Under the pieces are notes generated by a model that saw only the letters and a list, made by a program, of their open reading frames with translations, made no database searches and was not told where the DNA came from. This document shows, in pieces, positions 57,001 through 59,744 of a stretch of DNA of 64,000 nucleotides (positions are counted from its first letter, which is position 1; each line of letters begins with the position of its first letter). Where the stretch lies: assembly GCA_013001285.1 (NCBI GenBank), contig JABDMU010000057.1:1-64000 (forward strand). The letters are read 5' to 3'. The position numbers and the translations under genes were made by a program. The DNA comes from Flavobacteriaceae bacterium. GTDB taxonomy: Bacteria; Bacteroidota; Bacteroidia; Flavobacteriales; Flavobacteriaceae.

Positions 57001-57008
57001 TAATTTTG
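57001..57008 (+). promoter_or_regulatory. -7 box (TAATTTTG) before msrB-msrA
   Basis: TAATTTTG lies 42 bases upstream of the msrB ATG at 57051. An in-frame TTG at 57006 falls inside this box and is therefore rejected as a start. Confidence 0.5.
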
Positions 57009-57050
57009 AAAAGAATTTACGACAGAGTATATTCAATCTATATACAAAAT

Positions 57051-57503
57051 ATGACCTGGAAAGATATCATTCATTATGCGGTAAACGGAAGTCCAAAACC
57101 CGATCGTATTGTCATGAAAACCGAAGCCGAATGGCGGGAACAATTGACGCCTGAGCAATTCCGAATTACTAGAGAAAAAGGCACCGAACGCGCTTTTAGC
57201 GGCGCAAGTTGTCATAGATATGATCCCGGAATTTATAATTGTATCTGTTGCAACACATCCTTGTTTGATTCTAATTTAAAATTTGAATCCGGCAGTGGAT
57301 GGCCAAGTTTTACAGAACCCGTTAAGGCGAATGCTATCAAATACGAAAAAGATTCGTCCTTTGGAATGGTAAGGGTAGAAGTCATGTGTAATACCTGTGA
57401 AGCACATTTAGGTCATGTCTTTCCCGATGGTCCGAAACCTAGCGGATTGCGTTTTTGTATCAATTCGGAATCTTTAATCTTAGATGAAGATGGCAAACAA
57501 TAG
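57051..57503 (+). CDS. msrB: Peptide-methionine (R)-S-oxide reductase MsrB
   Basis: A 150-residue enzyme reducing methionine-R-sulfoxide in proteins or as free amino acid. The zinc site has Cys64 and Cys67 (NCICC) and Cys113 and Cys116 (VMCNTC). The catalytic Cys136 is in [19 protein letters not shown] and [10 protein letters not shown] are classic. There is no signal peptide, so it is cytosolic. Its last 20 bases overlap the msrA start, so the R- and S-specific enzymes are made together. Confidence 0.94.
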
Positions 57504-58023
57504 TACAGCAACGGTTGGAGGTGGTTGCTTCTGGTGTGTAGAAGCCGTTTTTCAAGAAGTAAAGGGCGTTGAAACAATTGTTTCGGGTTATAGCGGCGGA
57601 AATGCTCCTGGAAAACCAACCTATCGCGAAGTATGTTCAGGCTTAACTGGTCATGCTGAAGTTGTTCAGATAACTTATAATCCAGAACATATAGCTTATG
57701 CCGATATTCTGGTTATTTTCATGACAACACACGATCCTACTACCTTAAACCGGCAAGGAGCCGATGTTGGATCTCAATATCGATCTGTTATTTATTATCA
57801 TGATGAGGATCAAAAAAAAATAGCAGATGAAGTTGTCAAACAAATGGCTCAATATTATGAAGATCCCATTGTAACTGAAGTTTCTCAATTAGATGTTTTT
57901 TATGAAGCTGAAAAAGAACATCAGGATTATTATCGCAACAACCAATCAAATGGTTATTGCAGTTTTGTCATCACCCCAAAACTTCAGAAATTAAGGAAAA
58001 TTCATCGGGATAAATTGAAATAA
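57484..58023 (+). CDS. msrA: Peptide-methionine (S)-S-oxide reductase MsrA
   Basis: A 179-residue enzyme reducing methionine-S-sulfoxide. The nucleophile is Cys15 in GGGCFWC, with Cys18 also conserved in this motif. [27 protein letters not shown] and [17 protein letters not shown] are the family signatures, and [11 protein letters not shown] gives a further recycling Cys. An alternative ATG two codons in (57490) is equally plausible. Both starts lie within the 3' end of msrB, implying translational coupling. Confidence 0.95.
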
Positions 58024-58212: not shown

Positions 58213-58623
58213 CTAAGTTGCCAGGCGTTTATCGAAATAATTTTTTAAGGTGGTTACCTGAATAAACATTAATATTCCAAAAATGATGGTAGTGTATAAT
58301 ATGGTTTTAGAAATGACCATTCCTGACAACAATTGCTCAAGTTTACTTTCTTCCGCATATCGCCAGCTTATGTTATCAAACCATCCCAAAGAAGACTCAT
58401 TTCCATACAACACATAAGACACAAGTCCTAAAACAACAATTGCAAAAATAAAGAACCAAGCTCTTTTTGAAATTGGTGGTTTATAAGCTATTGTCGATTC
58501 TTGTGACACCTTCAATTGTTGCATAATATTGGCTGTAAAATCAGGTCCAGGTGAATCTAATTTTGTAGCCTTCATCATCTTCTTGGCCAATGCATTATAA
58601 TGCTGTTCTGAGTGTTCCTCCAT
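58213..58623 (-). CDS. Small membrane protein, likely partner (anti-sigma-like) of the ECF factor
   Basis: A 136-residue protein overlapping the sigma factor gene by 29 bases. The N-terminal ~50 residues are soluble (HYNALAKKMMKATKLD; DFTANIMQQL). Two membrane segments follow at about 51-71 and 105-127, separated by an ~30-residue loop with WFDNISWRY. An N-terminal cytosolic part ahead of membrane anchoring is the plan of anti-sigma factors, and the overlap argues for a shared job, but no zinc-binding HxxxCxxC motif is present. The role is inferred from position. Confidence 0.65.
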   Translation of the reverse strand: MEEHSEQHYNALAKKMMKATKLDSPGPDFTANIMQQLKVSQESTIAYKPPISKRAWFFIFAIVVLGLVSYVLYGNESSLGWFDNISWRYAEESKLEQLLSGMVISKTILYTTIIFGILMFIQVTTLKNYFDKRLAT

Positions 58624-59191
58624 AACTTTCTAAAATATCATTATCTAATTGTAATCTAAATATAGTCGCCAATTTTTTTCTCGCTCTAAATAATTTCACT
58701 TTTATATTATTTGGTTTTAGTCCAACAACTTTTGAAATTTCCTCTAAAGATTGTTCTTCAAAATAATACAAAGTAATTAAAAAACTATCTTCACTAGGCA
58801 ATTGGTCTAAGCAGGCCTCAATAGCGCTCTTTTTTTCGACTGCTGCCATAAGATCAAAGGCCGTTTCTAAGCTTTTTAATTTATGTTCGGTAAATGCATC
58901 TATAGTTACAGTTGCCTGTTGGCGTTTATTCTTTTTTAAACGATCCAAACAGGAATTATAAGTTACTTTATAGATCCAAGTTGAAAATTTTGAATCGCCT
59001 TTGAACTTGTCCAATGACCTGTATACTTTAATAAAAGTATCTTGAGCGACTTCTTCAGCCTCCTCTTTATGCTTCATCATCCTTAACGATAATGAATACA
59101 CTAAATCTTTATAACGATCCACAAGTATGCTAAATGCATGCATGTCTCCATTCAAGATTTTATCTATATAAACCTGGTCGTTGGTGGTCAT
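58595..59191 (-). CDS. ECF-type RNA polymerase sigma factor
   Basis: A 198-residue sigma-70-family factor of the ECF group. Region 2 spans about 20-90 (RYKDLVYSLSLRMMKHKEEA, FIKVYRSLDKFKGDSKFSTW) and includes the -10-binding IYKVTYNSCLDRLKK. Region 4 spans about 130-185 with the helix-turn-helix QSLEEISKVVGLKPNNIKVKL. Its start codon lies only ten bases downstream of a GTAACC-N16-CGTC promoter of ECF type, so it probably activates itself. The membrane protein gene follows with overlap. Confidence 0.92.
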   Translation of the reverse strand: MTTNDQVYIDKILNGDMHAFSILVDRYKDLVYSLSLRMMKHKEEAEEVAQDTFIKVYRSLDKFKGDSKFSTWIYKVTYNSCLDRLKKNKRQQATVTIDAFTEHKLKSLETAFDLMAAVEKKSAIEACLDQLPSEDSFLITLYYFEEQSLEEISKVVGLKPNNIKVKLFRARKKLATIFRLQLDNDILESYGGTLRTAL

Positions 59192-59201
59192 TTATAACTA
59201 A

Positions 59202-59227
59202 GACGATTCCTAATGTGATTTGGTTAC
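59202..59227 (-). promoter_or_regulatory. ECF-type promoter for the sigma gene itself
   Basis: On the minus strand GTAACC (59227-59222), 16 bases and CGTC (59205-59202) give the AAC/CGT pattern of ECF promoters. The ATG at 59191 follows after ten bases, so little or no leader is expected. The same motif pair with identical spacing faces the other way at 59252. Confidence 0.65.
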
Positions 59228-59251
59228 AGAAATAAAAAAATATTTAAAAGT

Positions 59252-59277
59252 GTAACCTAATTACAAACTCTGTCGTC
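59252..59277 (+). promoter_or_regulatory. ECF-type promoter for the DUF6249-like gene
   Basis: GTAACC (59252-59257), 16 bases and CGTC (59274-59277) on the plus strand. Predicted start near 59285 gives a leader of about 60 bases before the ATG at 59348. It matches the divergent promoter of the sigma gene in both boxes and spacing. Confidence 0.65.
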
Positions 59278-59347
59278 ATAAGCTAATGAAACCAATGTTA
59301 TGAAACAGGGTTATCATTTAAAATTAATCAATTAAAAACAAACAATT

Positions 59348-59686
59348 ATGGAAGTAGCAATTTTAGCAATAATTTTCGGGACGGTATTCGGTGTATTTTA
59401 TTTATATTTTTCGACCAGAAACAAAGAACGTATGGCATTGATAGACAAAGGAGCTGATGCTACAATATTTGCCACAGGAAAATCACACACGGCGCCCTTC
59501 TGGAAGGTATTTATCTTAAATCTTGCGCTCCTTTTCATGGGAATCGGACTTGGCATCTTAATCGCAACAATTATCGATTATTACACCGATCTTGAAAGTG
59601 AAGCCATTTATCCGGCAATTATCTTTCTAACCGCAGGAGCCGGTTTGTATGTAGGCTTTAATATGACAAAAAAATTAGACGAATAA
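59348..59686 (+). CDS. Small membrane protein, DUF6249-like
   Basis: A 112-residue protein with three hydrophobic segments, about 3-20, 50-73 and 84-104. Between the first two lies a cytosolic-looking stretch, TRNKERMALIDKGADATIF, whose RMALIDKG piece I recall from DUF6249 proteins of Bacteroidota. The function is unknown. It is divergent from the ECF sigma gene and carries the same promoter motif, so it is a probable member of that regulon. Confidence 0.8.
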   Translation: MEVAILAIIFGTVFGVFYLYFSTRNKERMALIDKGADATIFATGKSHTAPFWKVFILNLALLFMGIGLGILIATIIDYYTDLESEAIYPAIIFLTAGAGLYVGFNMTKKLDE

Positions 59687-59711: not shown

Positions 59712-59744
59712 AACCGTTTCCCATCAAGGAAACGGTTTTTTTAT
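59712..59744 (+). terminator. Intrinsic terminator after the DUF6249-like gene
   Basis: AACCGTTTCC (59712-59721) and GGAAACGGTT (59728-59737) form a perfect ten-base stem with a six-base loop, followed by seven Ts. Confidence 0.85.

Follow-up and report, generated by a model that had tools for sequence, protein, structure and literature searches.

Paired divergent ECF-type promoters predicted between a sigma factor gene and a DUF6249 gene in Bacteroidota

The locus among described ECF systems

Autoregulated ECF sigma factors have been described by a set of shared hallmarks, namely a two-domain sigma factor, an AAC-type -35 element, a CGT-type -10 element, a promoter ahead of their own operon and a linked membrane partner (PMC8103513, in the portion available). 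Among the Bacteroidetes ECFs, only 6% have a class I anti-sigma neighbour, and their RpoE-like group ECF03 is noted as being without a conserved anti-sigma factor, as far as the accessible text of PMC7406223 goes. The window analysed here (the whole 64-kb stretch of flavobacterial DNA) contains a locus that, like the autoregulated sigmaE/RpoE, SigW and EcfG types, displays these hallmarks, including a conserved AAC-type -35 and CGT-type -10 at the sigma gene's own predicted promoter (GTAACC-N16-CGTC). Judged from its sequence, the locus probably belongs to this autoregulated kind. Unlike these types, however, it combines two promoters with a fixed, divergently oriented DUF6249 gene, nothing in the window's genome points to a regulon beyond it, and the sigma start codon lies so near the -10 box that a near-leaderless mRNA is predicted.

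Comparisons with particular systems are more partial. The combination of a Bacteroidota ECF sigma factor with an adjacent membrane protein recalls Dma/Das of Bacteroides, in which an ECF21 sigma factor is paired with a dual membrane-spanning anti-sigma factor; Dma, however, reaches the outer membrane via a C-terminal beta-barrel (PMC13088901, available in part), whereas the partner at the present locus has 136 residues and is all-helical in its structure model. The two short predicted helices that precede the membrane helix resemble the CnrY-type (class II) anti-sigma factors, in which two helices wrap the sigma factor and whose plan we took from the accessible text of PMC7406223. This likeness is one of architecture only; the partner, unlike CnrY, has two long C-terminal helices, and no sequence or fold match was found. 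Finally, the CGT-type -10 is shared with the SM6 motif of Flavobacterium psychrophilum, which includes one ECF/anti-sigma operon; SM6 covers T9SS and other genes (PMC9723704, in the sections available), and the likeness is one of the -10 box. Our search of the openly licensed literature found no description of the module itself.

The preliminary description of this DNA had reported GTAACC-N16-CGTC on each strand between an ECF sigma gene and a DUF6249-like gene, and both sites were indeed found, with the neighbours as described (Table 1). A search for GTAACC-N15-17-CGTC returned exactly two matches in the 64-kb window, both with a 16-nt spacer, at 59252-59277 (+) and 59202-59227 (-). This pair is more than chance would provide, because dinucleotide shuffles of the window (n=100) gave a mean of 0.04 matches and not one shuffle contained two. 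The twin boxes lie back to back, with -35 facing -35, between the start codon of the sigma gene (59191, - strand) and that of the DUF6249 gene (59348, + strand).

Table 1. Features of the module and their positions in the window
Feature	Position	Strand	Details
Membrane partner gene, 136 aa, candidate anti-sigma	58213..58623	-	Model with two N-terminal helices followed by two long ones interpreted as spanning the membrane
ECF sigma factor gene, 198 aa	58595..59191	-	Pfam Sigma70_r2 70.7 bits, Sigma70_r4_2 52 bits
Sigma-ward ECF promoter (predicted)	59202..59227	-	-35 GTAACC 59227-59222, N16, -10 CGTC 59205-59202, TTA 59201-59199
A/T-rich spacer separating both -35 boxes	59228..59251		24 bp at this locus
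DUF6249-ward ECF promoter (predicted)	59252..59277	+	-35 GTAACC 59252-59257, N16, -10 CGTC 59274-59277, ATA 59278-59280
Conserved element TTAATCAATTAAAAAC in DUF6249 5' leader	59324..59339	+	Single exact copy in the window's genome
DUF6249 (PF19762) small membrane protein gene, 112 aa, divergent target	59348..59686	+	Pfam 53.6 bits (cut-off 33)
Terminator-like hairpin with T tail, 3' of DUF6249 gene	59712..59737	+	1 found against 1.0 expected in shuffles; weak alone

The sigma protein carries both of the promoter-binding parts of ECF (group IV) sigma factors, regions 2 and 4, as judged by Pfam, and the solved chains that match it best are ECF sigmas. Its ORF overlaps that of the membrane partner by 29 nt (58595-58623). 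The DUF6249 family has a single match in the 2.88 Mb draft genome, and its structure model returned no PDB match at E <= 0.001. Across the alignments, DUF6249 is better conserved than the partner, with a mean column identity of 68% versus 37%. Beyond the three module genes the neighbourhood varies, the commonest other neighbour being present in 35 of 111 loci. Outside this conserved three-gene unit, msrB and msrA, which overlap each other and encode SelR and PMSR domains, head towards the sigma operon at 57006-58023 in the window.

Conservation of the paired boxes

We scanned GTDB, with one genome per species, for the twin DNA pattern alone, which yielded at least 116 stretches. Among those listed, 108 are flanked by both a sigma gene and a DUF6249 gene, and a further six are cut by the edge of the stretch while having at least one correct neighbour each. 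In four of these six, the beginning of an ORF is visible before the stretch ends (sigma-like in L105, L113 and L142, DUF6249-like in L111), and in the other two (L094 and L145) one side is too short for the neighbour to be judged. The list contains two misses, L063 and L156, the latter having a sigma homologue 957 bp away and no DUF6249. The matches include Flavobacteriaceae, Chitinophagaceae, Saprospiraceae, Cyclobacteriaceae, Adhaeribacter and Lentimicrobiaceae, several of them MAGs, and because they span these taxa the sigma/partner/DUF6249 module, as recognised by sequence, is not confined to one family. One contig with both flanking genes (L116) is labelled Azovibrio restrictus, a proteobacterial MAG, and is likely to have been mis-binned.

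A phylum-wide draw of 395 genomes gave the looser twin pattern in 22, comprising 12 of the window's family and 10 outside it (hand count). Two of these 10 sit at module genes in another family, one at DUF6249 (G464) and one at sigma (G709); most of the remainder look G+C-rich and like chance matches. A homologue of the membrane partner was present in 255 of 268 sigma-bearing stretches, a count in which the window's own locus figures three times and the sets overlap.

Orthologues were also picked by protein alone, independently of the boxes. Searches with the sigma protein found matches in 32 of 99 relatives (E<=1e-30) and in 167 of 397 family genomes (E<=1e-33). The 155 loci analysed comprise 55 that the searches returned (among them the window's own) and 100 retrieved by position; lower-scoring sigma matches without a listed or retrieved position do not enter this set. 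In 140 of these 155 loci the two boxes lie opposite each other at a distance of at most 110 bp, and the strict twin (GTAACC-N16-NGTC on both sides) is present in 137 of the 155, as against 0 of 3100 dinucleotide-shuffled copies. The recurrence of the twin boxes across sigma orthologues is thus, on this sequence comparison, not a matter of chance, and the comparison of the intergenic region in relatives that the preliminary description had called for finds the boxes kept together with both genes. The sixth base of the -35 is C on both sides in all 140 loci, and the -10 pair reads CGTC/CGTC in 109 of them; as the locus search demanded GTAAC, only this sixth base and the -10 count as independent observations. 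The spacer between the two -35 boxes measures 18-36 bp in 135 of the 140 loci and 44-104 bp in the other five.

The 15 loci lacking a twin within range fall into several arrangements. Eight (L041, L042, L055, L198, L199, L243, L252 and L261) keep both -35 boxes with the promoters more than 110 nt apart. In three (L031, L034 and L036), the two genes share a strand, DUF6249 being the upstream one, and a single GTAACC-N16-CGT site stands ahead of DUF6249, so that the linkage of DUF6249 to an ECF-type site appears from their sequences to be kept after rearrangement. In L024 the sigma and DUF6249 genes are separated by approximately 1 kb and each has its own site, the sigma-ward one with N15. Two loci (L239 and L256) have the sigma-ward site only and no DUF6249 within the stretch, and L030 has a degenerate site. 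Among 15 more distant sigma matches, nine contain the twin (L309, L311, L312, L316, L317, L318, L319, L320 and L323), with a wider gap in L318, four show one site only (L310, L314, L315 and L321), and two (L313 and L322) show no site, the twin being present at the other match of these genomes. As a side observation, the eight wide-gap loci carry extra sequence between the -35 boxes, some of it repetitive-looking.

Probable recognition of the promoters and extent of the regulon

Taken together, the conserved boxes are very likely paired ECF promoters of a sigma/membrane partner/DUF6249 module. Across the family genomes, GTAACC-N16-CGTCWTA is present in 147 of the 167 genomes with the sigma gene (E<=1e-33), versus 16 of the 230 without it (hand tally); among these 16 is G242, where the twin occurs together with a DUF6249-like ORF and a sigma-like ORF ending after 80 aa. 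This co-occurrence, the DUF6249 site kept in the same-strand loci and the two -35 boxes kept in the wide-gap loci favour recognition of both boxes by the adjacent sigma factor rather than by another ECF. Positive autoregulation of the sigma gene is likewise suggested by the conserved site ahead of it. The best reading would then be that this sigma factor directs transcription of its own gene, the partner gene and the divergent DUF6249 gene. To the reading as a whole, that is, divergent ECF promoters read by the adjacent sigma factor, restrained by its partner, in a largely closed loop, we give a probability of roughly 0.87.

In the mechanism that we propose, the overlapping membrane partner, a putative anti-sigma factor, would hold the sigma factor off until a membrane or envelope cue frees it. 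RNA polymerase carrying the freed sigma would start at both promoters, with one transcript yielding further sigma and partner and the divergent one the DUF6249 membrane protein. The loop would be largely closed, the promoter code seemingly being used at this locus alone, and DUF6249 may be its only output or else belong to the sensor as a third component.

The preliminary description had regarded the boxes as promoters driving the sigma factor's own operon and its divergent neighbour, and had offered the pair as a query with which further members of the regulon could be sought. It had also taken the locus for a stress module, a reading that none of the present results supports. The boxes do behave as conserved promoters tied to the sigma and DUF6249 genes, in the family and beyond, but the search pattern did not fare as proposed: the four further GTAACC-N15-17-CGTC matches in the window's genome (2.88 Mb draft; L001, L002, L003 and L006) all lie inside ORFs, and a backward-read control pattern gave 17 matches in the same genome. 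The looser GTAACC-N17-GTC-WTA found the twin and one match that is antisense inside another ORF. Nor was a third site found near the module in the 900,214 bases of the 116 listed stretches, in which the mirrored control gave one.

The longer motif was also located in the 397 family genomes, and of the 150 matches listed, 126 are at the module and the other 24 away from it (hand tally); its backward-read control produced 103 matches over the same genomes (hand count), a rough comparison given that the composition differs. We inspected five of the 24 off-module matches. In one of these (L298, G120:C1:190275), GTAACC-N16-CGTCTTA stands 22 nt before a 486-aa protein with a Pfam Beta-lactamase match (207.7 bits), and this site looks like a real promoter. 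Of the other four, one lies inside an ORF (L299), one has no ORF start downstream (L281), one has an ORF start 194 nt away (L301) and one is followed only by a 51-aa ORF (L304). Since the other matches in the window's genome all lie in ORFs, the regulon looks private, with two promoters by default and what appear to be occasional additions in relatives, as seen by motif scans that would miss degenerate targets, other spacings and other boxes. A site very similar to that of L298 was also noted at G104:C75:8948.

Other readings of the boxes have to be weighed against this one. Their main reader might be a different ECF sigma factor, or several of them, the sigma gene being one target of a shared ECF network, and F. 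psychrophilum offers a precedent, as the CGT-type -10 of SM6 is common to T9SS genes and one ECF/anti-sigma pair, with its reader among seven ECFs left open (PMC9723704, in the part available). A shared network should, however, give the motif in genomes without the sigma gene and extra matches outside ORFs; the full motif is confined to the few such genomes tallied above, and the window's genome has no other match outside ORFs, which weakens this explanation and makes it unlikely. It is rather less probable still that the genes are transcribed from ordinary primary-sigma promoters of the TAnnTTTG type, with the ECF boxes playing a minor part. ECF loci can have several promoters, and the first sigma molecules need a basal start, which counts for such a contribution. 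Yet the most constrained positions, besides the bases required by the search, are the last base of the -35 (140/140) and the sigma-ward GTC (98-99%), and a scan with an E. coli-type consensus, which does not model the Bacteroidota primary promoter, found seven matches where 8.1 were expected, hence no excess.

The least probable of the explanations considered, to which we attach very little weight, takes GGTTAC...GTAACC as the two halves of an operator bound by a dimeric or a looping transcription factor, with CGTC secondary. It would account for the inverted repeat that the -35 boxes form in every twin locus, but the gap from half to half varies (18-36 bp in 135/140, more than 100 bp in some), GTAACC stands in fixed register to GTC, usually followed by an A/T-rich triplet, and the same-strand loci have a site ahead of DUF6249 without a divergent partner. 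We retain paired ECF promoters, read by the adjacent sigma factor, as the preferred explanation.

On this explanation, the locus provides a Bacteroidota ECF whose partner and target are both conserved and whose promoter code hardly varies across well over a hundred genomes, so that the question of the missing regulator becomes testable in a laboratory flavobacterium. At most loci two promoters are apparently read by one sigma factor, which would make them natural data for sigma-promoter co-evolution, and a regulon that is truly private would clearly exemplify an ECF sigma devoted to one locus. More tentatively, as a proposal that we would sooner doubt than assert, this may be a closed-loop module that is wide in Bacteroidota, in which the entire regulon would be its own operon and one small membrane protein, the mRNA would be near-leaderless, and the two-helix partner would represent the anti-sigma type so long missing for many RpoE-like ECFs of Bacteroidota.

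Predicted start sites, the membrane partner and variation of the -10 box

The ATG of the sigma gene lies 9, 10 or 11 nt past the -10 box in 128 of the 140 loci, and 10 nt after CGTC in the window. In the open complex of Mycobacterium tuberculosis sigmaH, the -10 GTT ends at -9 (PMC6411747, available in part). Placing the last C of CGTC at -9 by this numbering puts the +1 of the sigma transcript at 59193, from which we infer a leader of approximately 2 nt before the start codon at 59191, and the sigma mRNA is thus predicted to be near-leaderless. Of the F. psychrophilum mRNAs whose starts have been mapped, 5.5% are leaderless (PMC9723704, in the sections available). The DUF6249 transcript would start approximately 62 nt ahead of its start codon.

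This longer leader holds a conserved element, TTAATCAATTAAAAAC, which contains a short inverted repeat (TTAAT-CA-ATTAA) and had seven matches in 40 genomes, the window's included, five of them at the module as judged by place. Among the 129 DUF6249 leaders of at least 35 nt, TAATCAATTAAAA is present in 64 and the shorter string ATCAATTAAA in 66, as compared with 17 of 6450 shuffled leaders for the latter. The ATCAATTAA core ends 11-13 nt ahead of the DUF6249 start codon in 60 of the 67 leaders that have it.

The membrane partner was examined in an alignment of 67 sequences chosen for diversity from 250, in which M1 and F29 are invariant and P25, S26, Y47, P49, L50, I51 and W56 nearly so. Its low-confidence structure model (pLDDT 75, pTM 0.37) places two short helices at residues 5-19 and 27-43 and two long ones at residues 53-73 and 106-135. 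The window's partner matches no Pfam family above cut-off (a DUF6688 match falls below it), none of the Pfam anti-sigma families was found among the 67 partners at E<=0.01, the few Pfam matches being weak and scattered, and the model returned no Foldseek match. The partner can be regarded as a candidate anti-sigma factor. We considered and set aside assignment to two of the described types. The class I domain (ASDI) is a four-helix N-terminal domain, and approximately 52 residues with two helices precede the first long helix of the partner, in a model (pLDDT 75) that is not firm on this point; the Hx3Cx2C zinc signature of some ASDI is also absent, there being no cysteine in the window's partner. 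Dma-type anti-sigma factors were set aside likewise, as the short helical model offers no counterpart to their C-terminal beta-barrel at the end of a long tether.

Within the -10 box, GTC is nearly fixed and the first base varies (C, then A, T and G). Leaving out three loci without NGTC on both sides, this base is C at both promoters in 109 loci, mixed in 13 and 4, and non-C at both in 11 (Fisher p 4e-7, calculated with no tree). On the sigma tree, supported branches hold only two independent pairs of joint change, and such change cannot be told from shared ancestry with these sequences. An association between sigma residues and the -10 base was dropped, as many columns score alike and follow ancestry. 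One locus (L033, G038) has CATC/CATC in place of CGTC; no second such pair was present among the 15 further distant loci, and its genus is represented by one genome. The region-2 loop of its sigma factor reads FAYNSKF, and in most of the 17 loci compared this loop is F-x-G-x-S/A-K-F/L.
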